Below are positions 15,073 to 42,309 of a DNA stretch of 42,309 nucleotides, piece after piece. Each line of letters starts with the position of its first letter. Positions within the stretch are counted from its first letter, which is position 1. The translations under genes and the position numbers were made by a program. The notes beneath the pieces are model-generated. The model did not search any database, was not told the DNA's origin, and saw only the letters and a program-made list of their open reading frames with translations. The stretch covers positions 1-42,309 of IMG/VR virus record IMGVR_UViG_3300024264_002659. One strand, 5' to 3'. Source of the DNA: a virus.

Positions 15073-15787
15073 TTATTTTTATAGCACCCTGATACATGCA
15101 AGACCTTGCTATAGGTTCTATGACACGATCATGTTTTTTGACCCATTCAAACAATGCTTTCCATTCATGAATAGGCCAATTATTGAGTTTACCGGATAGT
15201 CTAAAGTTGGCTAATTCGTCAAACACGATTATTGTACCGGACTCGATCCTTTCATTTAACGTGTTTAATATATAGATCGCACTAGAGTAAAGATCAGAGT
15301 CAATGTGTAGGTATGCTATCTTTCCGAGGTTATTGTTGCACCATGGTTTCACTGTTTTGTTGAACCATCCCTTATGTAATTTTACATTAGCACCGAAGTT
15401 AGGCATCGGCACAGCCATGGCACCTGCTTGATAATCTTTACCACCGGTTTTCCATTCTTCCGGCAACCCTTCCCAACTGTCGAACCCATGCATCTCTTGT
15501 CCGGGTCTCTCATCAAGTAGCCACCCCATTGTATCGCCACCCCTGACTCCAAACTCTAACCAGTGTCCCTCGAGTGTTACATTTTTGATGACCTCTTTCT
15601 GCCATTTTATTCTAGTACCGACCACATCAAATTTTTCTAACTTACCTTCATACACGGGAGGTAACTTGATAAACTTGTTCAGTATTTCTTTTTCTAACTT
15701 GTTGCTTTCCCTATATTTGTCCAACTGTTTAGGTAGTTCGGATAATATCCTTTCCTGGCTTTTAACTCTTCTAATGTCTTTAGGCAT
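15065..15787 (-). CDS. TylF/MycF-type O-methyltransferase
   Basis: A SAM-dependent macrocin-O-methyltransferase family protein, 240 residues. Signatures are LEFGVRGG (77-84), HGFDSWEGLPEEW (100-112), HIDSDLYSSAI (161-171, metal-binding aspartates) and IIVFDE (186-191). Family members methylate sugar hydroxyls with Mg2+. The start at 15787 is chosen because the ATG shares a base with the preceding stop (TAATG); an upstream in-frame start would run deep into the neighbouring gene. It is co-transcribed with a radical SAM and an FkbM gene. Confidence 0.9.
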   Translation of the reverse strand: MPKDIRRVKSQERILSELPKQLDKYRESNKLEKEILNKFIKLPPVYEGKLEKFDVVGTRIKWQKEVIKNVTLEGHWLEFGVRGGDTMGWLLDERPGQEMHGFDSWEGLPEEWKTGGKDYQAGAMAVPMPNFGANVKLHKGWFNKTVKPWCNNNLGKIAYLHIDSDLYSSAIYILNTLNERIESGTIIVFDELANFRLSGKLNNWPIHEWKALFEWVKKHDRVIEPIARSCMYQGAIKIIK

Positions 15788-16788
15788 TACTGTTCTGTGT
15801 TGTTCCATTGTAAAAATTTTCGATTTTCTGTATGCACTCTTGCAGTTTTCTCTTCGTTCCAATCAAACTTTGCTCTGCTACAAGTGTTACACATCATGTT
15901 TTTTTTAGTTTCTGTATATGTGTTATTGTAGATTAGATCATGATACTGTGCAACATTTTTCCAAACACCACTGATACCAATATCAAACACGTTACCAAAG
16001 TCTGTTTGTCCTGTAGCATCATCACAACACAGTACTGCTTGTCCGGATACTAATACTTCTAGTGTACGCAATATCTTCCCATGCACCATGTCACAACCTT
16101 TTACGAATTGTTTCTCAGATATTTTGAAGTCCAGGCCGTCATCATCAAACTTGTTGTATACTAATCTGTTCTCGAGCCAGTTGGTTTTCTTTTTCACTTT
16201 ACCTAATGTCAGTTGTTGTATCTGTTGTATCACGGGGGCGTAGTGTTCTCGTTTGGGATCCTGTATCTTGTGTTTGACCCCTATGTTCATCTTTCTACTG
16301 ATCGCAGGATACTTGTCACGTATCATTCTTAGTCTCTCCCTGGTCACGTCCCAATCTATGTCCATCCATTCTCTGATTTCATCTTTGGTGTATCCGATTA
16401 TTGATATGTTTATCGTGGCTATGGTGTCTATGTATTTTGATATTAGGTCACACTTCTTCCCCCCAAAGCTCACAGCATTTGTAGTAAGACTTATTTTAAG
16501 TCTGTTCTTCTGACATATCTCGAACACGAGTTCTAGATCGGGACACACTAACGGATCCGAATATCTCCACGGCTTGACTATTGTGTTACTTGGATCTATG
16601 TTGTGCCTTTTGATACCACTGGCAAAGTCTTCGAGCAACACCCTTATCTTCTCTCCTGACATCCTCTTACCTCTGTACTCTTTGTCTTTTTCTAGGTAAG
16701 TGTACGGACAACAGAAACATTTTGCATTACATAAGTTGATAGGTTCAAACGCTAATTCAACAGGTGTAGGTAATGTTAGATTAAACAT
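15787..16788 (-). CDS. Radical SAM/SPASM protein
   Basis: A 333-residue radical SAM enzyme with its cluster motif at the extreme N-terminus (CNAKCFCC, residues 20-27; CxxxCxxC). The C-terminal region has an SPASM-like cysteine set (GCDMV, LCCDD, MCNTCSRAKFDW). The FEPINLCNAKC start is typical of SPASM proteins acting on sugars or peptides. It overlaps the FkbM gene by 8 nt and the TylF gene by one base, so three modification enzymes are translated together. Confidence 0.87.
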   Translation of the reverse strand: MFNLTLPTPVELAFEPINLCNAKCFCCPYTYLEKDKEYRGKRMSGEKIRVLLEDFASGIKRHNIDPSNTIVKPWRYSDPLVCPDLELVFEICQKNRLKISLTTNAVSFGGKKCDLISKYIDTIATINISIIGYTKDEIREWMDIDWDVTRERLRMIRDKYPAISRKMNIGVKHKIQDPKREHYAPVIQQIQQLTLGKVKKKTNWLENRLVYNKFDDDGLDFKISEKQFVKGCDMVHGKILRTLEVLVSGQAVLCCDDATGQTDFGNVFDIGISGVWKNVAQYHDLIYNNTYTETKKNMMCNTCSRAKFDWNEEKTARVHTENRKFLQWNNTEQ

Positions 16789-19874: not shown

Positions 19875-19903
19875 ATTTTACTGTCTATATAGGATTTTGT
19901 CAA
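19875..19903 (-). promoter_or_regulatory. Consensus promoter for primase-helicase, inside a late gene end
   Basis: On the minus strand TTGACA (19898-19903) and TAAAAT (19875-19880) are 17 bp apart. Most of it lies within the last codons of the structural gene ending at 19878. The -10 box is 10 nt from the ATG, leaving a leader of only about 3-4 nt. Confidence 0.8.
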
Positions 19904-20657
19904 TACGACCGGTGGTGCCTGTGTCTCTTACCGCTTTGAATCTCACATTTTGGAAAACACCAGTGAAGTTCAATGTGGATACGCTTGACGAAGCACTCAA
20001 AGTTGAACTGGTAATATCAAAGTAATCATTGTCAGTTTGTGGGTCAGACTCCATTGTACCTTGCACAGTCACGGTACCGGTGAATCCTTTAGGATATATT
20101 GCTATAGTGTGTAGTGCTGTATTATTATTAAGTCCAGGACGCCCTGTAATTGCACTTGATGTAAAAGTGTCACCCGAAAGTGTAAATGTGCTTATTGATG
20201 TGCTTGACACGTGCTGTGCATAGGCTCCATCCAACACTTCAATTGTGCCAGCCGCCGCATAACCAGTGTCTGAGTATGTGATCTCTGGATTGTCCCTGTC
20301 GGTCATATCGCTCACTGAAAAATTATAAAACTTGGCATCCATTTTGAGCAGATCACCATCAGTGATTGTGCAACTGGCATCGCCTTTTGTGCTCACAGTG
20401 GATCCATCGTCAACGATGGTAAGTTCTTTTGTCAATATCGCTTTCTTGCTTTCAGTATCAATTATGTTTAGTTCGTAAGTCTTCCCAACTATGTCTTGAG
20501 CCTTCTGATCCTCGTTTTTGAACGTGAATGTTATAGGATTTGATACCCCTCTATGCAGTGTTAGGCGTCTATCGTACACTTTTGAGTTCCTCCCGTGATA
20601 ACCATTTATGTAGGCTATTACCAATTGATTTATTAAATACCTTTGTACTGTTTGCAT
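19878..20657 (-). CDS. Putative virion structural protein (late gene)
   Basis: A 259-residue, strand-rich protein with serine/threonine/glycine-rich repeats in its second half (ISTFTLSGDTFTSSAITG, STLSASSSVSTLNFTG). The composition is typical of phage fibre, baseplate or head-decoration proteins. The N-terminal 110 residues look like a beta-sandwich (ITFTFKNEDQ...YELNIIDTES). A perfect late promoter lies 16 nt before the ATG, supporting late expression. It is isolated among replication genes. The exact virion role is unknown. Confidence 0.65.
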   Translation of the reverse strand: MQTVQRYLINQLVIAYINGYHGRNSKVYDRRLTLHRGVSNPITFTFKNEDQKAQDIVGKTYELNIIDTESKKAILTKELTIVDDGSTVSTKGDASCTITDGDLLKMDAKFYNFSVSDMTDRDNPEITYSDTGYAAAGTIEVLDGAYAQHVSSTSISTFTLSGDTFTSSAITGRPGLNNNTALHTIAIYPKGFTGTVTVQGTMESDPQTDNDYFDITSSTLSASSSVSTLNFTGVFQNVRFKAVRDTGTTGRIDKILYRQ

Positions 20658-20673
20658 AATACATATTTAACAG

Positions 20674-20681
20674 TATTTATA
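20674..20681 (-). promoter_or_regulatory. T4-type late promoter
   Basis: A perfect TATAAATA on the minus strand, the octamer recognised by the phage late sigma factor (gp55) with gp33/gp45 in T4. It is the only perfect copy noticed in the window, upstream of the structural gene at 20657. It overlaps the leader of the divergent gene at 20690. Confidence 0.75.
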
Positions 20682-21064: not shown

Positions 21065-21224
21065 TCTTATTAAGATCTGTACTGTTCACACCACACACTT
21101 TCTCAACATATTTTGTCAAAGGATTATCGGGTTGATAAGAATCAAGCTCTGATGTTAATGATGAAGCGGTGTTGGATTTCTTACGTTTTTTAGAGATTAT
21201 TTTTTTACGTTTCTGATTGTGCAT
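21057..21224 (-). CDS. Small basic protein, 55 residues
   Basis: The minus-strand ORF starts MHNQKRKKIISKKRKKSNTA and continues with a polar Ser/Asp segment and a TKYVEKVCGV helix. The N-terminus resembles a nucleic-acid-binding basic patch. It overlaps the 3' end of the plus gene by 8 nt and the DnaE-like gene upstream by 20 nt. No family recognised. Confidence 0.5.
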   Translation of the reverse strand: MHNQKRKKIISKKRKKSNTASSLTSELDSYQPDNPLTKYVEKVCGVNSTDLNKIK

Positions 21225-21795
21225 CAAAACTATATTTAGCTCTGTTTATCAGATTCATCTGTACCACTATGGCCTGTGCATATGCCACAGCATGTGATTT
21301 CTTGAAGAAGTAACTGCCATCTGTGGGTTTGATCCAAACTTCTTTCATTATGTCCACCCAGTCCTTGTGCATTAGGTGTCGCTTGGCTGGTCTTATTATT
21401 GCCAACACGGCCGCGAGTTGTTCTATGGTCCTTGGTTCTAACTTGGACACTATGTTGTAATGGCCATTCAGGTGGAATAGGTTTTCCACTGTCTTTGGAT
21501 CTTTCAGCATGTCCCAATCTGGTTCCTGTATCATGAGTTCAACAAGTTCTTGTTCGGATTTGACGTCCTTGTATATGTTCACGTTTAAGCAGTCGATCTT
21601 GAAGTATCCTCGTTCCTCGGCTTGCTTGTAATCTAAACTTGCGTGACCTGTCACAGGATGTTCTGGCACTGCGTGAAAGTACACTCCCGTCTTGTGTTTC
21701 TCTGACTTGCCGTCTTTGATCATTGAAGCAGGCGTGTGTTTGAATAATTTCAATGTGTTGTCTCTATCAAAGAAATCTATGTCTACGTCAGGCAT
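21205..21795 (-). CDS. Miniature DnaE-like protein (PolIII alpha palm remnant)
   Basis: A 196-residue protein with several landmarks of the C-family replicase DnaE in the correct order. PDVDIDF at 2-8 matches the DnaE PDxDxDF motif holding two catalytic aspartates (here Asp5, Asp7). YFKIDCLNV at 64-72 matches the third-aspartate motif KFDFLGL (Asp68). Then come LFHLNG...LEPRTIEQLAAVLAIIRPA (DnaE LFQFES...LALYRPG) and FKKSHAVAYA (DnaE NKSHAAAYA). A full DnaE is over 1000 residues, so fingers, PHP and beta-binding regions are largely absent. It may be a regulatory or non-processive relative; activity is unknown. Confidence 0.75.
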   Translation of the reverse strand: MPDVDIDFFDRDNTLKLFKHTPASMIKDGKSEKHKTGVYFHAVPEHPVTGHASLDYKQAEERGYFKIDCLNVNIYKDVKSEQELVELMIQEPDWDMLKDPKTVENLFHLNGHYNIVSKLEPRTIEQLAAVLAIIRPAKRHLMHKDWVDIMKEVWIKPTDGSYFFKKSHAVAYAQAIVVQMNLINRAKYSFDAQSET

Positions 21796-27899: not shown

Positions 27900-28382
27900 A
27901 TGAAAAAGACCAGTAAGAAGACTGTCACAGTCAGGAAACAATTGAAGATCAGATTGGAAAATACTCTGACTATGCGGAAGAATACTAGGAACTTCAGACC
28001 CACCCACTCAATAGTTGTAACTTGGTTTAAACATCTCAACAAGGGATTATTTGGTAATCAGTTACCCACTGTTCCAATGTACTTGGTAAGGATGACCAAT
28101 GACTGGGGCAGATGTTGGGCCAATTGGGACAACAGGAAATGCAGGAAAGGTTCTTACAATCAGAGTGTGATACCCTATGATAAGACCGATGTAACTTTTG
28201 CGATAGAGATACACACCAAGTATCCAACGTTCAGGGACTTTGTAGAAACACTGGCTCATGAGATGGTACATCTATATCAGATGACTGTGCTTAAAGATCC
28301 TTATTCAAATCACAACGCCAACTTCTATGCGTTCAAGAACAAGTTTAAAAGTGCTGGATTGACCTTATCAAGAACCGGCTAA
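27900..28382 (+). CDS. SprT-like zinc metalloprotease
   Basis: A 160-residue SprT/Spartan-type protein with HEMVH at residues 120-124 (HExxH zinc site) and a further His in the SNHNANFYAF region as third ligand. Residues 60-75 (MYLVRMTNDWGRCWANWDN) match the SprT family strand region. Spartan-type proteases cut DNA-protein crosslinks; the phage role is unknown. The last 15 nt overlap the converging gene at 28368. No zinc-ribbon C-terminal domain follows, so it is a minimal version. Confidence 0.85.
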   Translation: MKKTSKKTVTVRKQLKIRLENTLTMRKNTRNFRPTHSIVVTWFKHLNKGLFGNQLPTVPMYLVRMTNDWGRCWANWDNRKCRKGSYNQSVIPYDKTDVTFAIEIHTKYPTFRDFVETLAHEMVHLYQMTVLKDPYSNHNANFYAFKNKFKSAGLTLSRTG

Positions 28383-29117
28383 CACAGTATCCTCAAACTC
28401 TTTGTAACTCATGATTCGACTGTTACCCAGGTCCGTGCCTGTCTGTAGATAATTTAAATATTCCGGTGGATTGTCATGCACCACGGTGTAGTTCACATAT
28501 GGCCTCATCTTCAACATGTCTCTGAATTGTTTCAACCACCCTTCAAATATTTTGTCATCGTCTCGCTCACCATAACAATCTGTTCCTTGATATATGTTGT
28601 TCAGTTCGCCCTTGCCATACTCTCTGAAATCAAATCCTATCAGGTAGATGTTCTTGTGTCCATGCACACCCGCAGTCCAGAAAGCGGCGTTGCCTGATAT
28701 CCAGTGTGGGTTGTTTGGTATGAGATTTATCATGCCCTTGCTCTGTTTCCTGTTGACTTCTAAAGCAGGTCCGTAGTGTACAGTCTTCAAACCCACTTCG
28801 TCTTCCACCATCTGCATAGACATCTTGGTGTCCACAGAGAATATGAAGTCAGGCATGAAATCCCTGTAAAGTGCATTACACCCATAAGTCTGTCCAGTGG
28901 CTTTTAGTTTTGTAAGATCAAAGCCCTTACGTGAAGGACCATTGCCTATAACATAAGCGTTGCCTCGAGGTACCGCTTTGACTTTGTCTTCATAAAATCG
29001 GATATCTCGGAAACGTTTGCCCTGCTTGATTGTAGTATTCACGCATACATCTTCGCCCTCGTATTTTTTCCATTCAATTGGTTCAATTTCTTTTTTACCG
29101 ATGTTAATAGTTTGCAT
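28368..29117 (-). CDS. DUF115/GT42-like glycan protein
   Basis: A 249-residue protein with AYVIGNGPSRKGFDL (54-68), YGCNALYRDFMPDFIFSVD and a YLIGFDFREYG strand. This is the nucleotide-binding layout of DUF115 (MAF/MptE-like) and GT42 sialyltransferase-like proteins, which handle CMP- or nucleotide-activated substrates. It is the last gene of an eight-gene overlapping operon of glycan enzymes, sharing one base with the upstream gene. The exact transferase activity is unproven. Confidence 0.7.
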   Translation of the reverse strand: MQTINIGKKEIEPIEWKKYEGEDVCVNTTIKQGKRFRDIRFYEDKVKAVPRGNAYVIGNGPSRKGFDLTKLKATGQTYGCNALYRDFMPDFIFSVDTKMSMQMVEDEVGLKTVHYGPALEVNRKQSKGMINLIPNNPHWISGNAAFWTAGVHGHKNIYLIGFDFREYGKGELNNIYQGTDCYGERDDDKIFEGWLKQFRDMLKMRPYVNYTVVHDNPPEYLNYLQTGTDLGNSRIMSYKEFEDTVLAGS

Positions 29118-29986
29118 TATATATATTTCTCCTTTAATCTTGCTTGGATTCTAGCCCATGGTAATCCTTGATCTATTTCGTCCTCGAACCATTCTGTATA
29201 TGACAGCCGGTTGGCCCAGGTCAGTCTGTTGGGCATGGCCGGTGTGTTGATGTCTGCCAACTTTATATTACCAACGTCGTGGCACAGGCTGGATTCGGAG
29301 ACGAACACAGGTATTCCCTTTATCACTGCTTCCATGGCAGGGTTGCTGGAATGATTTACCACCGCCCAGGTTCTCTCAAGTGTTGCCTTGAAGTCCGTGT
29401 CATCGTAAGTCCTGTAATCCCTTTTTGGCAATCTCACTTTCACGTTCTTGAATTTTTTTTCATCAAATGTGATAACATTTCTAGGATGAGGTCTTACCAA
29501 TATTGGTCTCGTTGTGTACTTCCGTATTTCCTTTATCTGTTGTTCTATCCAGTTGGACATCCTCGGAAGTCCCTTCCATTGCTCTGATTGGTCGTGCTGA
29601 CCACATATGACAATTAGGTCTCCTGTGGGATTCCATGGACGCAATTCATGATTGAACAAAGGCCAACGTTTGTCATCAAATGTTTGATTGGCAAAGTCGG
29701 CATCTCTGTTTATTCCGTTTATTCCAATTTTGAAACTGAGATTCCTACGCAGTCCTCCTACTTCGATAACAATCACAGGCTTGCCTTGGCTCCTGTATCT
29801 ATCCCAAATCTTTTTGTAATTCTGCATCCTGCCTCTCCACAAAACACTCCAAATCACTGCAACGTCACTATTGGTCTCTTTATTCACATGTACCTCGTCA
29901 CCTGTTTCCTGCATTGACTTTATGAATTTTGCGAAGATATTTTTGCTGTTTAATGGGCCATGCATGGGCCATGCTTCTATCCTCAT
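29117..29986 (-). CDS. KpsS/capsule-synthesis-like glycosyltransferase, paralogue B
   Basis: 289 residues. It carries the family signature: FKIGINGINRD in the middle, ILVRPHPR, then VVNHSSNPAMEAVIKGIPVF, NTPAMPNR and the C-terminal LSYTEWFEDEIDQGLPW. The HSSNPAMEAVxxGIP block is the clearest of the five paralogues and closest to KpsS/KpsC-type capsule proteins. Probably transfers a sugar from a nucleotide or lipid-linked donor; the substrate is unknown. It shares a base with both neighbours (ATG at 29986). Confidence 0.7.
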   Translation of the reverse strand: MRIEAWPMHGPLNSKNIFAKFIKSMQETGDEVHVNKETNSDVAVIWSVLWRGRMQNYKKIWDRYRSQGKPVIVIEVGGLRRNLSFKIGINGINRDADFANQTFDDKRWPLFNHELRPWNPTGDLIVICGQHDQSEQWKGLPRMSNWIEQQIKEIRKYTTRPILVRPHPRNVITFDEKKFKNVKVRLPKRDYRTYDDTDFKATLERTWAVVNHSSNPAMEAVIKGIPVFVSESSLCHDVGNIKLADINTPAMPNRLTWANRLSYTEWFEDEIDQGLPWARIQARLKEKYI

Positions 29987-30906
29987 TAGTTGCCCTGCTT
30001 TCCTTTGGCCACCTTGCTCACTATGTCTTCTGCCTGTTTGGGATCAAACTTCACACCACCAAACGGATCATAGTTCTCCACGTTCTTCCAATAGTCCTCG
30101 TTCCTGTCTCCACGTAGGTCACTCTTGCTACTTTTGCCTTGCACTTTTCTCTTGCCTTTCATGTGGTCCACGTATGCTCCCAGCACACTATTGATGAACA
30201 CGTGATGTCCTTTGACACCTGCACCTTTGCCTATGTCCACTCCGTCGTTGGGTGCTACACGTTTGACACACTGCCAGAACAGGTAACTGTCATGCCATTC
30301 CAGCTCTTTGAATATGGTGTCCTTGATGTAAAGGCCCGTCCAGTACTGCATGAATTCTTTAATCTTTGGATGCTTCTTGTTGTAGCATACCCATCCGCAT
30401 TCCGGATATTTGTCATCCCTGCCCAGGAAGTTTACGAGCTTGTCTTCAGGCAACAGTCCAGTAACGAACTCTGTTGTGATTGGCCTGAATGTGTATGTGT
30501 CGGCATCTAGCCATAGCACATAATCTGTGGTAATTGTTTTTATCGCGTGATCCACTGCAAAGGTCTTGTGTGCGAATCTCACAGCGTCCCATAGGTAAGA
30601 ACCTTTGCCCTTGTCATTTTTGCCTGCGTTAGGGTCTCGTCTGACACCACCCGGTATTTCATTTACCTCACCGTTGGCCACAGGGTCGTCCTTGTGTCTC
30701 TGTTTGAATTTGACCAATTCGATACAGGCATCTTCTATGTTGATAAATTTGATCTTTGGATGTTCTAGTGTTGGTTTCTCGCCCTCGTGATAAGCATATA
30801 GAGTAACGTCGTCTGGCCAGAATTGAATATGGCTTTCCAACATCCTTTTCGCATATGCTGTCCATCTGTTTGGCGGGAAGGTGGTAACTACAGATAATGA
30901 TGTCAT
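29986..30906 (-). CDS. GT-A glycosyltransferase
   Basis: 306 residues from the ATG at 30906, which shares a base with the preceding stop (TAATG). It has a SLSVVTTFPPNRWTAYAKRML start, a GSYLWDAVRFAHKTF helix and the DxD motif in VLWLDADTY (134-136), which binds the metal and nucleotide-sugar. The region GWVCYNKKHPKI and C-terminal DSYLFWQCV fit a small glycosyltransferase of the GT2/GT8-like GT-A type. The C-terminal 60 residues are basic and polar. Sugar unknown. Confidence 0.8.
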   Translation of the reverse strand: MTSLSVVTTFPPNRWTAYAKRMLESHIQFWPDDVTLYAYHEGEKPTLEHPKIKFINIEDACIELVKFKQRHKDDPVANGEVNEIPGGVRRDPNAGKNDKGKGSYLWDAVRFAHKTFAVDHAIKTITTDYVLWLDADTYTFRPITTEFVTGLLPEDKLVNFLGRDDKYPECGWVCYNKKHPKIKEFMQYWTGLYIKDTIFKELEWHDSYLFWQCVKRVAPNDGVDIGKGAGVKGHHVFINSVLGAYVDHMKGKRKVQGKSSKSDLRGDRNEDYWKNVENYDPFGGVKFDPKQAEDIVSKVAKGKQGN

Positions 30907-31889
30907 TATAAGCCTAACCTCTGTTTGAATCTTTTGTACACTGTTCCGTCCCTTATTTCTTGTATGCTCCATAATTTGTAACCCAGATCATTTACCCACT
31001 GTGTCCTGTCGGGTGTCTTTGGTGTTTCTATATCATTGAGATTTTTGTTACACACGTCCCAACACAGTGCAAGATCTGACGTGCAGAACGTTGGTATTCC
31101 CCTTATGCAACTGTCAACACTGGCAGTGGAGTTGTGCGTTACCACAGCATGTGCATTCGCTATTGCTTCCTGGAAATGGAATCTGTAAAACTTCTTTTCA
31201 TCTCCCGCAAAGTGTTGCTGTGTGTACTGAAGCTCAACATCGTCTGGCAAGTCTCCTTTACGTGCCACAATGGATGCGACATGGTTTGGATGCGGACGGA
31301 CTATGAACTTCCTGTCAGTGGCAGGTCTTAGCCTTTCATAAACACTGTTGAACCATTCGATGGGATCTAGTTCGTTCATGCTCCAGTTGTCCTTGGGTTG
31401 CAGTACGAATATTATGGGATCGTCTTGATCAGACTTACGCCATGGTTCGTACTTCACTTTGAATTTTTTCACCATCATCTCCCAACGATCGCTTGGACTG
31501 TTGTCAGATAGGAAGTCGCCGTCGTTCATTGGTGTGTACAAGGACACCCTGAAATGATGATCAGGTGACGTTGACACATTACCAAAACTAGATAAAAGTC
31601 CTCCGTCAAATGTTATCAATGGAATTTTCTTTTCTCTACAGTTATTGGCAAGTTCCCTACGTCTGCCTTTGGTGTGATGCATCTGCTTGTCGCCACCATA
31701 TCCAAACATGGCCGCCATGGGTGCAGTAGGAGTCATCTCGCCTTCCACTGTTGGACCAGTTCTATTTTCGTGTACAATCACGGCTTCGTCACCCGCGGCC
31801 TCTATGCCTTCCTTGAGATGGTAAAGCAACTCGTAACTGTTGCCACGTTTACGGTCCTTCACTGTCCTACGAAAAATTTCAACTTTCAT
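30906..31889 (-). CDS. KpsS/capsule-synthesis-like glycosyltransferase, paralogue C
   Basis: 327 residues, the longest paralogue. Signatures are FIVRPHPNH, VVTHNSTASVDSCIRGIPTF, IETPKTPDRTQW and LGYKLWSIQEIRDGTVY. A middle segment (ITFDGGLLSSFGN, FRVSLYTPMNDGDF) matches the KxGINGI-type region of paralogue B. It overlaps the FkbM gene by 11 nt and the GT-A gene by one base. Function as for the other copies is inferred from family resemblance only. Confidence 0.68.
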   Translation of the reverse strand: MKVEIFRRTVKDRKRGNSYELLYHLKEGIEAAGDEAVIVHENRTGPTVEGEMTPTAPMAAMFGYGGDKQMHHTKGRRRELANNCREKKIPLITFDGGLLSSFGNVSTSPDHHFRVSLYTPMNDGDFLSDNSPSDRWEMMVKKFKVKYEPWRKSDQDDPIIFVLQPKDNWSMNELDPIEWFNSVYERLRPATDRKFIVRPHPNHVASIVARKGDLPDDVELQYTQQHFAGDEKKFYRFHFQEAIANAHAVVTHNSTASVDSCIRGIPTFCTSDLALCWDVCNKNLNDIETPKTPDRTQWVNDLGYKLWSIQEIRDGTVYKRFKQRLGL

Positions 31890-32667
31890 CTACATCCTTC
31901 CTACAAAAAATTACTTCCATCATCGCCTTCAGTCTCTTTCTGTTTACGTACACGTTATATTTGTCTTTGTGCAATTCCACTAGCTCTCTCACTTTATCGA
32001 ACGCCTCATTGTGTGTCATTCCTACATTTAGTTCCATCTCTGCGACCCAGTATTTCACATCTATATCTTTAATTTCTTTACCAACATCGTACCATAATCC
32101 TTCTACGTCTGTTTTTAGTATGTCAATGTGATCCCATCCTAATTCGTCCATGACCGTTTTAATATTTTTACATTCTACTTCTATGTAGCTCTCCGGCCCT
32201 TCGAATGTGTTTACTAGGGAGAAACTAGTACCTATGTCATCTGCACTATTAGTGTCTTCTTGTGCCTTGTAATAAAATTTCATTTTCCCATTAACAGGTG
32301 CATATGCATATGGTTTGAAAGTTAAATTATTTTTTACAATTTCTCTGCTCAACTTATTGCCGTCCGGTAAATCTTTATATATGTGCCATCCACCCCTGTA
32401 AAGTATATCTCCTAGATGCTGGATGGTTTTTGGTGTGGGATCATACATTCTCACATCCAATTGATTGTTATCTATACATATTAGTTTTTCAAAATGAGCA
32501 TCACCTCCCACACCAAAGCTCAATACTTTTTTAGAATTTTTTACCAGTAGTTCCGGTACACAGTAGTTCCTGTAAACCTTGAAGGACTGCTCTTGAAATA
32601 ATTCTTCTTCAAACTTCCTTATACGCTTAACAATTTCTACGTTTTCAGATTTTAACCTATCCGCCAT
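31879..32667 (-). CDS. FkbM-family methyltransferase
   Basis: 262 residues with an FkbM-type signature: VLSFGVGGDAHFE as motif I (47-59), a DVRMYDPT acidic strand, and HIDILKTDVEGLWYDV as the family hallmark. Motif I has SFGVG rather than the usual DIGAN, a moderate departure. It probably methylates a sugar hydroxyl. It overlaps neighbouring KpsS-like genes at both ends (10-11 nt), pairing with them in translation. Confidence 0.8.
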   Translation of the reverse strand: MADRLKSENVEIVKRIRKFEEELFQEQSFKVYRNYCVPELLVKNSKKVLSFGVGGDAHFEKLICIDNNQLDVRMYDPTPKTIQHLGDILYRGGWHIYKDLPDGNKLSREIVKNNLTFKPYAYAPVNGKMKFYYKAQEDTNSADDIGTSFSLVNTFEGPESYIEVECKNIKTVMDELGWDHIDILKTDVEGLWYDVGKEIKDIDVKYWVAEMELNVGMTHNEAFDKVRELVELHKDKYNVYVNRKRLKAMMEVIFCRKDVDES

Positions 32668-33466
32668 TTAACATTCTCCATGCTGTGCCGTTTGCCATTT
32701 CTTGTAGTGTCCAGTTATTATACGCTAGACTGCTGAATAATGCAATCCTATCTCCGTATTTAGGTGTTTCTATCTTGCCGAAATCCGTCTCAGATATGGG
32801 AGCGGCCGCACTGTTGTTGGGATCACAGAACACAGGAACACCGTTTGCCAGGCTAGCAATCATGGTGTTGGAGTTGTAAGTCACTGTTGCATGGTAATCG
32901 CCCCAATTGATATTGCCCTTGTGTACAGTTGGCCTGTCTACTTTTACCGTTGCACCAACATGATCGATTTTGATTGTTGGATTGTATGGTTTTTCCCTTA
33001 CGTCTATTTCTCTGTCAGTGTTCTGTTTGAGTATCATCAATGTGTTGGTTAGCCAATCGTTAGCATCAAAGAAGTTCGCTATTGCATTGGTTGGCGGTAG
33101 GACAAGAATTTTCTTGCCCTTGTTCCATGGTTTGAGATCTTGTTTGAAATGTTTTTCATACCTGTCTGTGGGTCTCTGTTGTAGTATGTTCTGACAGTGT
33201 TTGTTCTTGGTTATACGCAACCAGTGTGGACTGTCATGTGCATTGGTGAAATACCCATGGTCCATGAAATAGAAATCTCTGTGTTCCTTCTCACACCATT
33301 TGTACACTTCACCAGACCCCGCCAGTATGCCGTACATGATTAATGTGTCTTGGGGTAATGATTTTAAATCTCTGAATTGGTAAATCTTGCCTTGTCCGGA
33401 GCCACGAACGAAAGCATCAACGTAACGCTGTGTCCGTGGTTTAGTTGTGTGTATTCCTGAAATCAT
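32657..33466 (-). CDS. KpsS/capsule-synthesis-like glycosyltransferase, paralogue D
   Basis: 269 residues, a more divergent member. RPHP is replaced by VREKPYN, followed by ATVTYNSNTMIASLANGVPVFCD, IETPKYGDR and LAYNNWTLQEMANGTAW. The N-terminus includes YFMDHGYFTNAH, a motif paralleled by WFTDTPYFGRF in paralogue E. Changed His in the RPHP motif may alter or abolish activity. It overlaps the oxygenase and FkbM genes. Confidence 0.65.
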   Translation of the reverse strand: MISGIHTTKPRTQRYVDAFVRGSGQGKIYQFRDLKSLPQDTLIMYGILAGSGEVYKWCEKEHRDFYFMDHGYFTNAHDSPHWLRITKNKHCQNILQQRPTDRYEKHFKQDLKPWNKGKKILVLPPTNAIANFFDANDWLTNTLMILKQNTDREIDVREKPYNPTIKIDHVGATVKVDRPTVHKGNINWGDYHATVTYNSNTMIASLANGVPVFCDPNNSAAAPISETDFGKIETPKYGDRIALFSSLAYNNWTLQEMANGTAWRMLNGG

Positions 33467-34206
33467 TTTTCGTTTACCGTGAACATGTGTGACCTACTTG
33501 CTCTACTGTATTCTGCAATTATGTTTACACTGCGTCTATGTAAACTTGCATTTATTCTTGGAGTCACTCCGTGTATTGCTTTAGTCGAATTATTTACGAA
33601 CATCACGAATGTGTTTGCTTTGTATGGAACTGTTGTGAAAACACTTCCAAGGTTGTGTTCAAAAATTTGTCTTCCCTTCTTCATGTCCACGTCCTGTACG
33701 GGATCAACAGAATTATAGATCTGAAATTCACCTCCTGTACTTGTGTCATCATTGTATGGCATATACAATAGCCCTGCATATATTTCTCTTGGGTTGTCTA
33801 TGTGAGGTGATCTTGTCGTTGTCGCAATGGGCTTGTGCATAACAGTTTGACAATCTGTCCAAATGTGAGCAGACTTATCAACCCAACCCCTAGGTCCCAG
33901 TTCTGGATTATCATGTTTGATGTATTCAGAGAACACAGTTTTTACTTCATTATAGAACGTCATCGATGTATGATATTTGGTGAATTCCTTCCATATATTG
34001 GAAACTTTTCCCGGCTTCAACATCTCATCTGCTTTCAGCCTGTAACATATGCCTGAATCAAACGGCTCCGTGGATAACAGTTGTTCTTTGGGCCACTCCT
34101 TCTCAAGTTGATCGTATACGTCATGGGGTAGTGCATCCTCAATCACAAAATGTGGATAAGGCTCTAGCACAAGTTCAGGTTTCTTTTGTAGCACTGATAG
34201 GTTCAT
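33463..34206 (-). CDS. 2-oxoglutarate/Fe(II) oxygenase
   Basis: 247 residues of the prolyl-hydroxylase-like 2OG-FeII oxygenase superfamily. Iron ligands are His135 and Asp137 (PHIDNP) and His212 (IHGVTP); Arg224/225 (HRRSVNI) binds 2-oxoglutarate. The intervening strands LLYMPY and GGEFQIY complete the jelly roll. Such enzymes hydroxylate proteins, lipids or sugars. It sits second in the glycan operon, overlapping the GT61 gene by an ATGA junction, so a hydroxylated glycan or lipid carrier is possible. Confidence 0.87.
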   Translation of the reverse strand: MNLSVLQKKPELVLEPYPHFVIEDALPHDVYDQLEKEWPKEQLLSTEPFDSGICYRLKADEMLKPGKVSNIWKEFTKYHTSMTFYNEVKTVFSEYIKHDNPELGPRGWVDKSAHIWTDCQTVMHKPIATTTRSPHIDNPREIYAGLLYMPYNDDTSTGGEFQIYNSVDPVQDVDMKKGRQIFEHNLGSVFTTVPYKANTFVMFVNNSTKAIHGVTPRINASLHRRSVNIIAEYSRASRSHMFTVNEK

Positions 34207-35291
34207 TCTAGGTGCTCCATAATTTCGGGTATGTTAATCTTGAAGTTGATCATGTCGCTAAATCTTTTCACTCCTTGTAATTTTTTTCCTTTATCTCGTG
34301 GTATGTCTACAATGTCCGCTAGGTAAAGTTTATGTTTCAAATTTAAGTTGTGTGATAGCAATGGATAAACTTTCTTGTGTATCATGTTTTTGGCTTGGAT
34401 CTCTATGACTTTTGTTCCGGGTTGGCACCATAAGAGATTGATCAGGCCTGCTCCGTGTGCCGCCAGCACATGTGATGCTTCCGCAAATGTTTTTATCTGA
34501 TCCTTTATACTTAGATTTTCAAGTGTGACAGTCTCCCATCCTTTTAGTTTTAGTAACAATTCGTCTGAGTTTAACATCCTTCTGGTTTTGGCCCCCGGCC
34601 TTAGCACGACTATTTTCCTATGAGGTTTTACTCCCTCAATATTGGTCAACCCTTTGAAATGTCGCAACCATGGAGCAAGAGCCGGGGTGGTTATACCATC
34701 TCTCACATTGCTCATGCTAGGCACTATTAGATGTTTGAATTGCCATGTTTCTCCTTTGGGCATTGTAACTATTTTTACATCTGGGAAAAGTTCTTTACAT
34801 ACTTTTTCAAAATATGTACTATGGTTGGCTAGCACAAAGCAATATCTAGCAAAGTTTGTTGACCATCTTTTCTCTAACAATCTAAACTTGGATATAACAT
34901 CAATCCAAATGTGCCATGGATTTTCTTTGCTGTCGTCGTCTACAGGCAACCATACATAAGTTCCGGTCTCATGAAAGAATTTAGTGACCGGTGGCAGTAT
35001 CACATCCACCTTGTCATCCCATTCCGTCCAGAGTTTGTGGCTCTTGTGTGGCTTGTGTCTGCTCTTGTGTGTCAGTTTCCACACATGCTCTGTTATCAAT
35101 TTATTTTCTCTGGTCAACAACAACGGGCAGGTATGCACTTTGCAGTTATGGAACTCCGCCACGAATGTTGGTAAACTTGTGAAGTGTGGATCTATGGAAT
35201 CATGGTAGGGCACGGTGTAATTGTATTCCGGGTCCACCGTCTCCCAACGGTCGAGGAAATACTTCAGCGAGTTTATGTTTTTGGCTAACAT
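34203..35291 (-). CDS. GT61-family glycosyltransferase
   Basis: 362 residues from the ATG at 35291. The frame is open to 35459, but that extension crosses the divergent promoter and gene, so the internal ATG is preferred. Family features are KIVVLRPGAKTRRMLN (donor-site region), LENLSIKDQIKTFAEASHVL and AAHGAGLINLLWCQPG, the DUF563/GT61 hallmark. GT61 enzymes transfer xylose, GlcNAc or related sugars in polysaccharide synthesis. It heads an eight-gene operon ending at 28368. Confidence 0.87.
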   Translation of the reverse strand: MLAKNINSLKYFLDRWETVDPEYNYTVPYHDSIDPHFTSLPTFVAEFHNCKVHTCPLLLTRENKLITEHVWKLTHKSRHKPHKSHKLWTEWDDKVDVILPPVTKFFHETGTYVWLPVDDDSKENPWHIWIDVISKFRLLEKRWSTNFARYCFVLANHSTYFEKVCKELFPDVKIVTMPKGETWQFKHLIVPSMSNVRDGITTPALAPWLRHFKGLTNIEGVKPHRKIVVLRPGAKTRRMLNSDELLLKLKGWETVTLENLSIKDQIKTFAEASHVLAAHGAGLINLLWCQPGTKVIEIQAKNMIHKKVYPLLSHNLNLKHKLYLADIVDIPRDKGKKLQGVKRFSDMINFKINIPEIMEHLE

Positions 35292-35309
35292 TTTATTAAT
35301 AATTATGTT

Positions 35310-35338
35310 ATAGTACACTATTATGATATTATTCTCAA
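35310..35338 (-). promoter_or_regulatory. Divergent promoter region of the glycan operon
   Basis: On the minus strand TTGAGA (35333-35338) and TACTAT (35310-35315) are 17 bp apart, about 19 nt before the ATG at 35291. The reverse reading of the same bases gives TATAGT (35309-35314), a -10 candidate 8 nt before the plus-strand ATG at 35323, without a clear -35. One symmetric element may serve both directions. Confidence 0.55.
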
Positions 35339-35988
35339 ACGGTTGCAGTTTCCTGACTCCCAGACCCAAGGACGGTGTGGACACTTTTACCAGCAAGTTA
35401 ATTGCTGAAAAGTATGGTATGGAACTTGCCAACATAGCGATGGGAGGTCGGGGGAACACGAGGGTAAGTTTCTCATCAAAGGTATGGCTTGAACAAAATC
35501 AAGACAAGGATGTATTCGCTGTGATAGGATGGTCCAGTGCAGTCAGGAATGACTACTTAACGGATGACGGCTGGAAGAAAGGTCGCGTACCAGGCACAGA
35601 TCTCACTTGGCGTACCTGGAAGACATTAGACAACGTTAGTTTTATCAGGAGCCACAAAGGGTGGGATATTGAAAATAATTTAGCAATGAATTTTTTAGAA
35701 AATGTTTTTGACCTACAAAATTATTTTGAACGTAAGCGAATACCTTATGTGATGTATAACTCACTGCCCAACGATTTTGGTAATGGCACAGCAGATTTTG
35801 AAGTCATCAGGAACGCGATAAACATGGATAGATTCTTCAGTCCAACAGTTAGTCATTTAGAATTTGTCATGGACAAGAACTTGATAGTAAGTCCAAATGA
35901 TCCACACCCATCGGCAGAAGGACACCAACAATGGGCAACACAACTAACGGAATTTATAGATGCTAACAATCTACGCACCATTCAGTAA
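35323..35988 (+). CDS. SGNH-like protein, paralogue of 13703
   Basis: 221 residues with the same blocks as the gene at 13703: FSNGCSF (Ser nucleophile), MGGRGNTRV, VIGWSS and C-terminal NDPHPSAEGHQQWA with the Asp-x-His pair. It also shares the NxFxLQNYFxxxxIPYVxYNxLxND segment. It is shorter because a middle loop is missing. It leads a three-gene plus-strand unit with paralogue E and an FkbM methyltransferase. Probably an acyl hydrolase or transferase on a glycan. Confidence 0.72.
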   Translation: MILFSNGCSFLTPRPKDGVDTFTSKLIAEKYGMELANIAMGGRGNTRVSFSSKVWLEQNQDKDVFAVIGWSSAVRNDYLTDDGWKKGRVPGTDLTWRTWKTLDNVSFIRSHKGWDIENNLAMNFLENVFDLQNYFERKRIPYVMYNSLPNDFGNGTADFEVIRNAINMDRFFSPTVSHLEFVMDKNLIVSPNDPHPSAEGHQQWATQLTEFIDANNLRTIQ

Positions 35989-36772
35989 TAAGAAAAGCAA
36001 GGCATGGGAGGTGTTCAACGGTGTTGAGAAGTCGTGGCCAGATCAGATTACGAAGTTAGATAATGCTGTGGAAACGGATCCTGTGAGCAACAGCATGTTT
36101 TGGGGATTCGTCGGCAACAACAGGGAGATGGTCAAGAAGTTGGAAGCACGTAATCACAACTACTGGTTCACTGACACACCTTACTTTGGAAGATTCGATA
36201 ACAACAACCTGAAACCCGACAATCATTATTGGCGTGTGTGTAAGAATGCCATACACGTGCCTTACATAAAAAATTGCAAAGCAGATAGATTTGAGAAGTT
36301 TGGAATGAAGATCAAGGCACCAAACTTTGCAGGCAAACACGTTTTGGTCTGTCCCAGTTCAACAGGTATCCACCAATACCTGAACAGACCCAATTGGACT
36401 AATGAGACAATTGAACAGATTAAGAGATACACGGACAGACCTATCAAACTTCGACACAAACCTAGGGGAAGGGGTACGTCAGGGCCAAGTGAGGCCAAGG
36501 CACCCCTGTCCGAGGACCTCAAGGAAGCGTGGTGTGTGGTCACAAGTTGTAGCATAGTGGCCGTGGAGGCCATGTGTGAAGGAATACCCGTGTTCTGTGA
36601 TAATAAGAGTTTCGCTGTCGATGTCGGGAACGTTGAATTGTCAGACATCGAGAATCCCTACTACGGTGGGCCTGAACCTTGGCTGTACAGCCTAGCATAC
36701 CAGCAGTTCACACCAGAAGAGATAACCAATGGCACGGCGGTAGAAATACTAATGGACAAAGGAATACTATGA
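35960..36772 (+). CDS. KpsS/capsule-synthesis-like glycosyltransferase, paralogue E
   Basis: 270 residues. The family signature is present with RHKPR in place of RPHP, then VVTSCSIVAVEAMCEGIPVFCD, DIENPYYGG and LAYQQFTPEEITNGTAV. The N-terminal WFTDTPYFGRF motif parallels paralogue D. It starts inside the end of the SGNH gene (29-nt overlap) and overlaps the methyltransferase by an ATGA junction. Substrate unknown. Confidence 0.65.
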   Translation: MLTIYAPFSNKKSKAWEVFNGVEKSWPDQITKLDNAVETDPVSNSMFWGFVGNNREMVKKLEARNHNYWFTDTPYFGRFDNNNLKPDNHYWRVCKNAIHVPYIKNCKADRFEKFGMKIKAPNFAGKHVLVCPSSTGIHQYLNRPNWTNETIEQIKRYTDRPIKLRHKPRGRGTSGPSEAKAPLSEDLKEAWCVVTSCSIVAVEAMCEGIPVFCDNKSFAVDVGNVELSDIENPYYGGPEPWLYSLAYQQFTPEEITNGTAVEILMDKGIL

Positions 36773-37374
36773 TGTATGATTATCTAAAAAATCTCAAATC
36801 CAAACAAGAGTTCATGCCTTCGAGGATACTGGATATAGGTGCGTGGAATGGATTCTGGACCAAAAACGTTAAACTCATTTGGCCCGATGCTCATTACACA
36901 TGCATTGAAGCGGGGCCAAAACACGAGAAAAGATTAAAAGAAGTAACCAATGATTATCATATTGCTGTGCTTGGAGACAGTGACAGAGAAATTAAAATGT
37001 ACCTGCGTGAAATTGACAAGGGAAATAGGAAGAAGGTGACATACACCAAAGGTTCAACCGTTTTTAGTATTTTCAAAGACTATGAGATTAGACAGATGAA
37101 AACGTTGGACCAATTAGTGGGTAAGGATGCCCAGTATGATTTGATCAAACAGGATGTTCAGGGTGCTGAGATAATGATCATGAATGGTGCTCCTGACATA
37201 TTCACACGTGCCAAGTATGTGATACAGGAAGTTAATCTATACAAGGATGAGCAGTTTCCGGAGATGCCATCGGAAAATGAAATGGACGAATACATGTTCC
37301 AATTAGGATTCAATGATAGTGAAGTGATCGAGCATAAGGAAAACGCCGATCAGATAGATAAGATTTATTTTTAA
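36769..37374 (+). CDS. FkbM-family methyltransferase
   Basis: 201 residues from the ATG at 36769, which overlaps the preceding stop (ATGA); the frame extension upstream to 36679 lies in the neighbouring gene. Motif I is ILDIGAWNGFWTKN, followed by CIEAGP, and the FkbM signature appears as YDLIKQDVQGAEIMIMNGA, where the usual DVEG is DVQG. It completes the plus-strand cassette of SGNH, KpsS-like and methyltransferase. Confidence 0.82.
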   Translation: MMYDYLKNLKSKQEFMPSRILDIGAWNGFWTKNVKLIWPDAHYTCIEAGPKHEKRLKEVTNDYHIAVLGDSDREIKMYLREIDKGNRKKVTYTKGSTVFSIFKDYEIRQMKTLDQLVGKDAQYDLIKQDVQGAEIMIMNGAPDIFTRAKYVIQEVNLYKDEQFPEMPSENEMDEYMFQLGFNDSEVIEHKENADQIDKIYF

Positions 37375-37376
37375 TT

Positions 37377-38051
37377 CTACGAACTGAACAGATTTATAAG
37401 TTCCTTCTTCCAGTCGTCAGCGTATTCACAATCTCTGTAACCGTCAAACCACGGACCGCCTTCTGTGTAGTGTAGAATTTTAGGTGTGCCGTCTTTGGGT
37501 TCTTTGTACCACTCGACCAACCAATTGTATTCTAGTGGCAACGAACCTATCTCATTGTCTTCCAACCAACTGAACCTGTGTAGGAACTTTGGCGATTCTT
37601 CGTTCAGCAACTCCGGTGTTAGTATTTTGTTCTTTGGATGTTCGCAGTTCCAAAGCACCATGCTGGACCAGTTTTTTCTTGGATAAGAAGTCTGTACTTG
37701 TCCGTCCATCTTGGTCGTTTCCTTGGGTGTGTAATCGTGTTGCACAACCACAACGGCCTTGCTTGAATCACAGTATTTTACAAGTTCATGACTCGGTATC
37801 TTCCAAAGGAAGTCACAATCACAGAACACCGCCCACCCCTTGAAGTCGTTCATGTAAGGGACAAAGAATCTAGTAAAAGTAAACTCGGTTGATGCCAGTT
37901 TGTCTACAGGCCTGGTGTATATTCCTTGGTCACGCATCTGTTTTTGTTTGAGGGGTATTACTTCTGCCGACGGGTCTCTACGTTTGATCGAGTGTTCACA
38001 CACTTGGTATGCTATGTCTTCTCTGCTGTCGTGCCCAACGTAAATTTTCAT
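37377..38051 (-). CDS. GT8-like glycosyltransferase
   Basis: 224 residues from the ATG at 38051, which overlaps the preceding HAD stop by an ATGA junction. The start MKIYVGHDSREDIAYQVCEH and the FCDCDFLW motif (Asp78 and Asp80, DxD) fit a GT-A enzyme of the GT8-like group. The C-terminus has PKILHYTEGGPWFDGY, the His-containing region that closes the active site in GT8 enzymes. It is the last gene of the unit with UvsY and HAD genes. Confidence 0.8.
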   Translation of the reverse strand: MKIYVGHDSREDIAYQVCEHSIKRRDPSAEVIPLKQKQMRDQGIYTRPVDKLASTEFTFTRFFVPYMNDFKGWAVFCDCDFLWKIPSHELVKYCDSSKAVVVVQHDYTPKETTKMDGQVQTSYPRKNWSSMVLWNCEHPKNKILTPELLNEESPKFLHRFSWLEDNEIGSLPLEYNWLVEWYKEPKDGTPKILHYTEGGPWFDGYRDCEYADDWKKELINLFSS

Positions 38052-38674
38052 TTTCTTCCTGAAACTATTTGGTGTATGTCTTTCCAATTACTTACACGGA
38101 TAATGTCAGGATGATCAAAGTCTTGATTGTATGGGTGGTCAATTAATATAGGCTTTAAACCGTATTTGAGCCCGGCTACAGCGTTGTTTGGCTTGTCCTC
38201 GACCCAATACAGCCCGGTATCATGGAACTCCGCTAAAGCACCGTCTTTGTCAGCACCTGTACCTAGTATATGGTAATTTGTGAACACATGATCACCAAAC
38301 AGTTCTCCCAGTCTTCTCTTACGCAACTGCTGTGCTGGTATGTCTGATGTCTGTGATGTTATCGGTATGAACGTCCACCCTTCAGCCGCTAACAGTTTTA
38401 CCCAAGTCTGTGATTCGAGCATCGGTCTCTGTGTTCCCATCCAAGCACTCCTGTTAAACTCCCTAATGTGCTTCCTGATCTCATCTTTGGTCACACCGAA
38501 ACGTTCTGCCATCTCGTATGTATTCTGTTTGTCTGGCAGTAGTCTGTGTGGGTGATATCTTGCACCTCTCTCGTCAAACAGTGTTTTCTGCAACATCCAT
38601 TTAGTGAAGTGATGTTCCCATTCCAACAGTACACCGTCTACGTCTGTGAGTATTATTCTATTTGATGTCGGCAT
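38048..38674 (-). CDS. HAD-superfamily phosphatase-like protein
   Basis: 208 residues from the ATG at 38674 (GGAAG precedes it; the longer frame would overlap uvsY further). HAD motifs are TDVDGVLL (Asp11/Asp13), PITSQT (motif II), a KDG lysine, and YWVEDKPNN (motif IV). HAD enzymes dephosphorylate sugars, nucleotides or proteins. It is placed between uvsY and a glycosyltransferase, so its substrate could be either a nucleotide or a sugar phosphate. Confidence 0.82.
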   Translation of the reverse strand: MPTSNRIILTDVDGVLLEWEHHFTKWMLQKTLFDERGARYHPHRLLPDKQNTYEMAERFGVTKDEIRKHIREFNRSAWMGTQRPMLESQTWVKLLAAEGWTFIPITSQTSDIPAQQLRKRRLGELFGDHVFTNYHILGTGADKDGALAEFHDTGLYWVEDKPNNAVAGLKYGLKPILIDHPYNQDFDHPDIIRVSNWKDIHQIVSGRK

Positions 38675-41636: not shown

Positions 41637-42309
41637 TTAACTACCACAACAAAGCAAACAAGTTTTTATATACGACTTTGTGTCAATAGATTTTTCAATT
41701 TGTCCTTCTACTACTGGAGTTTGTCCAAAATAACAACAAGGTGCAATAATTCCTGATGCGTTCAAAAATAAACTTGACAAAGCCAGGTGCATACAATTCT
41801 TTTTTTCAACTATTTTCTTTACTATTTTATTTCCAGTTGTCTTATTCAGTATTTGACCTTTCCTTGTCCACTGGGTTTGGTGTTTGCTCCATGGTTTAAT
41901 CTCCACAGGATTTCCTGATCTGTAATCATACGACTCGTTAAAATATCTGGCATCTTTTACGAATTCAAATTTTGAGAATCCTAGTGCTGTCGACATTTTC
42001 ATACAATCTTTGATCTGATGTTCATTGTGAGCAAAGGGTATAAATTGCCAAACAGCGTTCCCTCCCGCATTTATGAATGATTTTGCATTGTCAATTATCT
42101 TATTCCAGTCGGTGGCCTGCCTGTAGATTTTATGAGTATCCTCCAAACCATCTATTGCAAACCACACAGATAACTTATCGCCAAACTTTTTGGCTAGGCT
42201 CGCCCACCAATTTGCTGTTCTAAGGCTACCGTTGGTATGTATCTGTAATGACATGTTTGAATCTTTTACAACTTCCAATTGTCTATCAATCAACTTACTA
42301 GCACATGGG
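41637..42309 (-). CDS. Radical SAM/SPASM protein, partial (runs off right edge)
   Basis: The frame is open to the window edge; the first called start is a TTG at 42293, so the true start lies outside. The visible part covers the second half of a radical SAM barrel (LQIHTNGSLRTANWW, WFAIDGLEDTHKIYR) and a C-terminal SPASM-like cysteine set (NCMHL, APCCYFGQTP, CLLCCGS). The N-terminal CxxxCxxC motif is not in the window. It follows the pattern of the other four radical SAM genes, with an unusual CCxxx...CLLCC ending. Confidence 0.8.
   Translation of the reverse strand, partial: PCASKLIDRQLEVVKDSNMSLQIHTNGSLRTANWWASLAKKFGDKLSVWFAIDGLEDTHKIYRQATDWNKIIDNAKSFINAGGNAVWQFIPFAHNEHQIKDCMKMSTALGFSKFEFVKDARYFNESYDYRSGNPVEIKPWSKHQTQWTRKGQILNKTTGNKIVKKIVEKKNCMHLALSSLFLNASGIIAPCCYFGQTPVVEGQIEKSIDTKSYIKTCLLCCGS

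Follow-up and report, generated by a model that had tools for sequence, protein, structure and literature searches.

A predicted glycan operon with a constant gene spine and variable slots between uvsX and uvsW of an uncultured T4-like, probably marine phage

We found that an eight-gene operon on the minus strand (28368–35291) of a 42309-base IMG/VR virus record, the whole of which is called the window here, is built on a constant spine of six genes (GT61, KpsD, KpsC, GT-A, KpsB, and D115). The spine was intact and collinear in 55 related contigs, and the slots between its genes were variably occupied. Our preferred reading, which we hold at about even odds, is that the operon is an early or middle cytosolic pathway that decorates a host LPS/LOS intermediate to block competing phages. 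LPS-type clusters of marine phages have long been listed, and whether they are working genes or filler has been undecided; a locus with a fixed spine and slots makes this question testable. From each slot gene a specific chemical change of one glycan can be predicted (hydroxyl, methyl, amide, or sulfate), and natural pairs that differ by the presence of a slot gene are available.

The relatives were collected as 80 contigs via GT61 (out of 111 matches) and 27 via the 2OG oxygenase gene; all are fragments, and the 55 non-duplicate contigs spanning the locus are the basis of the counts given below. In these contigs the locus was placed between the T4-like core genes uvsX and uvsW. The order was uvsX, g38658, an NT5C-like gene, GT37377, and the divergent FkbM2, KpsE, and SGNH1 (a unit found at the same position in most relatives), followed by GT61, slot, KpsD, slot, KpsC, slot, GT-A, slot, KpsB, slot, and D115, and then by SprT, 26485, and uvsW. 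The slots were occupied by the 2OG gene (40/55), an asparagine-synthase-like gene (29/55), a second GT-A gene with a GDP-mannose 4,6-dehydratase gene (9/55), FkbM (7/55, missing in the nearest relatives), and a DegT aminotransferase gene with an NAD-epimerase gene (3/55); sulfotransferase and methyltransferase genes also occurred. The profile matches were 3.5e-116 for the dehydratase, 2e-77 for DegT, 1.5e-52 for the asparagine synthase, and 1e-12 for the sulfotransferase. At least 5 changes of FkbM and 12 of the asparagine synthase were counted on the KpsC tree, and 7 and 12, respectively, on the GT61 tree. We read these changes as repeated gains, losses, or exchanges.

All eight ORFs of the operon were intact and uninterrupted (Table 1). 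An overlap of 1–11 nt at every junction, as noticed in the sequence-only reading, was confirmed by measurement: 4 nt for GT61/2OG and 2OG/KpsD, 11 nt for KpsD/FkbM and FkbM/KpsC, and 1 nt for KpsC/GT-A, GT-A/KpsB, and KpsB/D115. The value for KpsC/GT-A uses the GT-A start at 30906, which is conserved in the orthologues; the longest ORF would give 67 nt. Overlap as the distinguishing feature of the operon was rejected, because overlaps also occur at 18 of the 27 other same-strand junctions of the window, against 7/7 inside the operon (Fisher p = 0.15). A Shine-Dalgarno-like site lies within the upstream gene for 6 of the 7 internal genes (≤ −5.3 kcal/mol, a level reached by approximately 10% of random positions), and the first gene, GT61, has no such site at this level. 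D115, the last gene, overlaps the convergent SprT-like gene by 15 nt.

Table 1. Features of the operon and its flanks.
Feature	Position	Strand	Remarks
GT61 glycosyltransferase, 362 aa	34203..35291	-	first gene, spine; PF04577 E 9.8e-23
2OG-Fe(II) oxygenase, 247 aa	33463..34206	-	slot gene; PF13640; 40/55 relatives
KpsD, KpsS-like paralogue, 269 aa	32657..33466	-	spine; REKP replaces RxHP; paralogue alignment
FkbM-type methyltransferase, 262 aa	31879..32667	-	slot gene; PF05050 2.5e-7; 7/55 relatives
KpsC, KpsS-like protein, predicted GT-B, 327 aa	30906..31889	-	most conserved spine gene; AF2 model
GT-A-like glycosyltransferase, 306 aa	29986..30906	-	spine; ORF may reach 30972; conserved D[ADG]D in alignment
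KpsB, KpsS-like paralogue, 289 aa	29117..29986	-	spine; RPHP motif
D115, DUF115/GT42-like, 249 aa	28368..29117	-	last gene, spine; GNGPS motif; pelagiphage relatives
Divergent intergenic region, 31 nt	35292..35322	.	AT-rich -10-like bidirectional element, conserved in relatives
Divergent partner unit SGNH1 (DUF6071-like), KpsE (KpsS-like), FkbM2	35323..37374	+	overlapping genes
Glycosyltransferase-like gene (GT37377)	37377..38057	-	46% to Mosig 'putative glycosyltransferase'

The eight genes had been taken for a single co-translated assembly line, and this idea survives in part. It agrees with the glycan-type content of the cluster, with a single promoter-like region in the divergent gap ahead of the first gene, with the clear nucleotide-sugar and decoration genes added in relatives, and with overlaps that re-form upon gene gain or loss. 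The view that the eight genes form a fixed unit was rejected, because slot content varies in the relatives (FkbM as above; 15/55 have nothing or another gene in the 2OG slot) and strands are mixed in distant ones. In the more distant L130, L131, and L133, the same genes lie in the same region with KpsC, KpsD, and KpsE on strands differing from those of their partners, which indicates that a single transcript is not obligatory.

Family support for the enzymes was uneven. GT61 was solid (81.4 bits against a PF04577 cut-off of 27) and FkbM good (31.4 against 22.7 for PF05050, below the stricter TIGR01444 cut-off), and the 2OG protein passed PF13640 barely (27.2 against 27); these earlier family calls held. 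The GT-A, KpsS-like, and DUF115-like calls rest on sub-threshold matches. GT-A matched PF00535 at 0.073, and its relatives were found in phages Mosig and MW202713; KpsD had no Pfam match. D115 gave E 0.0017 and 18.6 bits against PF01973 (cut-off 34.6 bits), which we take to be the former DUF115/Maf family, and its profile matched CstII sialyltransferases weakly (E 0.02 across 30 residues); its structure model had a pLDDT of 40. D115 may be tied, weakly, to the DUF115/MptE-like and GT42 families. In regards to the 2OG protein, H135, D137, H212, R224, and R225 of the HxD...H...RR pattern were invariant in 12 orthologues, giving the iron triad and distal arginine of 2OG-Fe(II) oxygenases. Because KpsC has a predicted Kdo-transferase fold, a Kdo hydroxylase (KdoO-like) identity was weighed for this gene; it is not claimed, as PF13640 was the only credible Pfam family. 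Searches of PDB sequences with KpsC, the paralogue set, KpsA, 2OG, and GT-A yielded nothing useful. Radical SAM/SPASM, TylF, FkbM, and sulfotransferase-like genes were seen elsewhere in the window.

The KpsS-like genes form a set of divergent paralogues, with KpsB, KpsC, and KpsD inside the operon and KpsE (at 35960) and KpsA (at 12804–13706) outside it. KpsC, the one paralogue assessed structurally, gave an AF2 model (pLDDT 78.6) with the modified GT-B fold of GT99, GT107, and GT140. Its top Foldseek matches were retaining β-Kdo transferases (6mgb, 1.2e-7), and its best 15 VIA rows were all Kdo transferases (Z 11.2–12.5 over 236–259 residues), by a modest margin over the next unrelated structure (Z 10.7). 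The best solved matches were bacterial KpsC (GT107), KrkA (GT140), and WbbB (GT99), which share the overall predicted fold and RxHP with the phage protein and differ from it in sequence (10–14% identity). Retaining β-Kdo transferases are recognised by two published motifs (PMC12887879, PMC10148158): (K/R)XHP, which binds CMP, and QXXXD, which holds the nucleophilic Asp. RxHP was present in 56/56 sequences of both KpsC and KpsB. KpsD (mostly REKP at that position) and KpsE (RHKP) have neither motif. At the second motif KpsC has QPKDN (QXXD) and KpsB QHDQS; KpsA, with QKVGD, is the sole paralogue with a QXXXD-type motif. Capsule_synth (PF05159, the KpsS/KpsC family) matched nowhere in the window, and a literature search on KpsS in phages yielded nothing relevant. 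The model therefore suggests that phage KpsC resembles retaining β-Kdo transferases in fold and RxHP, and the missing QXXXD keeps it from being classed as one; the earlier KpsS-like label is borne out by the predicted fold, and the family's full catalytic motif is not there.

We compared the junctions of the relatives to follow the changes in slot content. In most relatives KpsC starts with ATGAAAGTTGA, which, read one frame over, contains the TGA that ends KpsD in contigs lacking FkbM and FkbM in contigs carrying it. Wherever FkbM is present, its start ATGGCGGATAG (with variants) provides the KpsD stop. Most slot changes preserve overlaps in this manner, the upstream stop coming from the start sequence of the downstream gene. 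The window differs from L002, L017, L021, L013, and L008 by exactly 778 nt, which is FkbM minus the shared 11 nt, between flanks of approximately 80–95% identity on both sides; L008 lacks the 2OG gene in the same manner. The DNA identity of the 2OG gene was 67–68% in L002, L017, and L021, between flanks of 78–89%, and 88% in L013, which suggests that 2OG alleles are exchanged too. Among 386 junctions of the relatives, an overlap was seen at 309, and 373 either overlapped or had gaps of ≤20 nt. No other observation speaks as strongly for selection on compact, coupled translation, and compactness alone could yield the same pattern. On these comparisons FkbM reads as a start-codon-bounded cassette. 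Because the conserved start of a spine gene gives a stop to any upstream gene, whole enzymes might be exchangeable seamlessly with translation staying coupled. We put forward tentatively, as an idea that may well prove wrong, that the locus is a serotype-switching system of such cassettes. If so, related phages differing mainly at this locus would show different host-surface glycans, and the locus would parallel, in phages, the capsule and O-antigen loci of bacteria.

The 31-nt gap at the head of the operon is predicted to promote both divergent units, probably through its conserved -10-like element. The T4 late consensus TATAAATA occurs in 11 copies in approximately 288 kb of two relatives, and 9 of the 11 sit 6–64 nt before an ORF, most of these ORFs having structural-type sequences. 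The window's single copy precedes 19878–20657, whose L124 homologue is also preceded by one. No copy was found at the operon, so its expression is probably early or middle.

We propose the following pathway. The single promoter in the divergent gap would drive eight cytosolic enzymes, and the overlapping junctions with embedded Shine-Dalgarno sites would couple their translation. GT61, KpsB, KpsC, KpsD, GT-A, and D115 would build a short oligosaccharide from host nucleotide sugars, with a CMP-activated ulosonic acid, for example Kdo, probably among the donors. The slot enzymes would then fix the final chemistry, by 2OG hydroxylation and FkbM methylation here and by amidation, sulfation, or supply of deoxy- or amino-sugars in relatives. 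The eight proteins lack transmembrane segments, and 288 kb of sequence from relatives gave no recognisable polytopic protein of the polysaccharide-export type. Pfam scans of nine records, all fragments, detected neither a flippase nor an initiating sugar-phosphate transferase nor a CMP-sugar synthetase. These results point to host-made sugar donors and to an acceptor at the cytosolic face, the likeliest being a host LPS/LOS intermediate at the inner membrane. The LPS/LOS core is assembled on lipid A, and the host itself flips the product, which fits this acceptor. With the decorated product flipped and exported by the host, the infected cell would show an altered receptor, and competing phages would be excluded. 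Counting against this reading are QPKDN in place of QXXXD in KpsC, the lack of both motifs in KpsD and KpsE, and the mixed strands of the distant relatives.

A virion protein as cytosolic acceptor fits the absence of export genes equally well. The main rival reading, which we consider possible and somewhat unlikely, is that the glycan is added in the cytosol to a capsid or tail protein, with D115 acting as a Maf/DUF115 flagellin glycosyltransferase and the variable slots altering virion antigenicity or adsorption. It draws on the contact of D115 with PF01973, on the solubility of all the enzymes and the lack of export or initiation genes in the relatives searched, and on the 2OG enzyme, which could hydroxylate a residue ahead of glycosylation. 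However, the PF01973 match lies far under the cut-off, and the locus sits among replication genes without the late promoter that structural-type genes have in relatives. A literature search on virion glycosylation returned no papers. Synthesis of a small secreted or intracellular glycosylated metabolite during a long infection, as for some jumbo cyanophage clusters (PMC7824862), appears improbable: the window's Radical SAM/SPASM, TylF, FkbM, and sulfotransferase-like genes resemble small-molecule biosynthesis, but no core synthase was recognised and six spine genes of glycosyltransferase type suggest an oligosaccharide. We give little credence to hypermodification of phage DNA, in which the glycosyltransferases and the 2OG oxygenase would modify bases against host nucleases. 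T4-type phages can glucosylate DNA and the genes adjoin replication genes, but a base-hydroxylating system was not recognised, the Pfam match of the 2OG protein is to the P4H-like PF13640 and not to a TET/JBP family, the dehydratase, aminotransferase, and sulfotransferase genes of relatives are typical of polysaccharides, and the slot genes are dispensable among close relatives.

Median dN/dS values of the spine genes and 2OG were 0.03–0.09 (GT61, 0.05 with 55 orthologues), similar to those of the neighbours UvsW, UvsX, and 26485 (0.02–0.07; UvsX 0.04, 26485 0.07). The spine genes are under strong purifying selection; as FkbM gave just 3 usable pairs, no claim is made for it. Functionless DNA that fills the head during headful packaging, an idea that PMC3037559 raises for the LPS clusters of cyanophages, would accommodate gene content that differs between close relatives, but the spine's collinearity and these dN/dS values make it scarcely credible.

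The presence of LPS-type clusters in marine relatives, assumed at the outset, agrees with excerpts of two reports (PMC3037559, PMC7029224), in which T4-like cyanophages P-SSM2, S-SSM7, and S-SM2 and the hypervariable regions of pelagimyophages carry LPS-type gene sets, with alteration of the host O-chain or surface proposed for the pelagimyophages. The operon likewise brings glycosyltransferase genes together with sugar-modifying ones within a T4-like genome, is phage-borne, and varies between relatives. In those excerpts, however, the clusters sit near hli03/phoH or in the tail-fibre region, and none is described as having a fixed spine with slots at a site between uvsX and uvsW. Polymorphic glycosyltransferase clusters of jumbo cyanophages for capsular polysaccharide modification, some with 2OG oxygenases, methyltransferases, and carbamoyltransferases (PMC7824862), differ in glycosyltransferase families and belong to a separate phage group. 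Pelagibacter phage Mosig EXVC030M (MT647606.1, 124832–130666), a T4-like SAR11 phage, has a row of overlapping glycan genes that, like the operon and its flanks, includes methyltransferase, GT-A-like, GT37377-like, and two KpsS-like genes (annotated hypothetical), plus a sulfotransferase. The identities are 22–46%, the row has no GT61, 2OG, or D115 gene, and unlike the operon it adjoins ribonucleotide reductase and RuvC genes. Pelagibacter phage HTVC008M (KC465899.1, 752–4983) has a near-contiguous row near gp32 with a D115-like gene (30%), a carbamoyltransferase, and a 2OG-type PhyH dioxygenase; its other enzymes differ, and no KpsS-like or GT61 gene is annotated. The 2OG gene had been considered unusual in such a combination; we rejected this view, since the gene is common in the relatives, is matched in the published jumbo cyanophage clusters, and has a PhyH-type counterpart beside a D115-like gene in the cultured HTVC008M. 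LPS-type clusters, some with 2OG oxygenases, are thus already known. The features that appear new are the constant spine with its slots, the position of this spine between uvsX and uvsW in an uncultured lineage, the group of KpsS-like paralogues with a predicted Kdo-transferase fold (KpsC), and the apparent start-codon-bounded exchange of genes.

The window encodes gp32, UvsX/RecA-like, UvsW, gp41/DnaB-like, and primase-like proteins, which marks its phage as T4-like; the source is probably an uncultured marine virus related to jumbo phages. A nucleotide search gave no DNA-level match to isolated phages, and protein searches gave no match to GT61, 2OG, or FkbM among them. Relatives of KpsC, GT-A, and D115 were nearly all pelagiphages (among 50,697 phage records), with Mosig and HTVC008M the closest cultured ones and a spring-water podovirus known from a metagenome as a further one; this hints at a SAR11-type host, without proof. 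Host assignment via MAG titles was dropped, because the contigs matching KpsC look viral and are binned with MAGs of many phyla; a porin, tried as a host clue, was absent from these MAGs. The best matches of UvsW were jumbo phages (52–54%; Phosso, PA5oct group), and the major capsid protein of the relative L098 (196,581 bases) was 78% identical to that of Phosso and 71% identical to those of the GAP32/CBB group.

Both the QXXXD and RxHP motifs of retaining beta-Kdo transferases are intact in KpsA only among the KpsS-like paralogues. The module that contains KpsA is the second of its kind and mirrors the unit at 35323-37374. A KpsS-like gene adjoins the porin-like gene carried by this T4-like phage, and no counterpart of the porin-like protein was found in the six MAGs compared.

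The late-promoter consensus lies upstream of a structural-looking gene (19878-20657), and the homologue of this gene in the related contig L124 (17464-18258) likewise has the consensus, 17 nt upstream. The contigs L127-L133 of the same phage group were placed in MAG bins whose labels range over Pelagibacter, Verrucomicrobia, Gammaproteobacteria, Rickettsiales, and Pacearchaeota; these appear to be viral contigs inside reference genomes.

Features of the window and of the 91-kb phage relative L125
Feature	Position	Strand	Remarks
Radical SAM/SPASM-type genes (n=5)	7168-11391, 15787-16788, 41637-42308	-	
Porin-like gene (outer membrane)	11733-12671	+	PF00267, 4.7e-11
KpsS-like (KpsA), DUF6071, methyltransferase	12804-15072	+	module
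T4 late-promoter consensus	20674-20681	-	exact; single exact copy in window
Short ORF	21205-21795	-	DNA polymerase III alpha finger-domain, weak match, 0.0089
Two neighbouring 8-TM proteins	L125 5523-7396		LivH/LivM branched-chain amino-acid permease-like (by eye)

The short ORF sits in a region with few other called genes. Interspersed among the radical SAM/SPASM-type genes are one SDR gene (9854) and another gene, sulfotransferase-like as judged by eye (8171).
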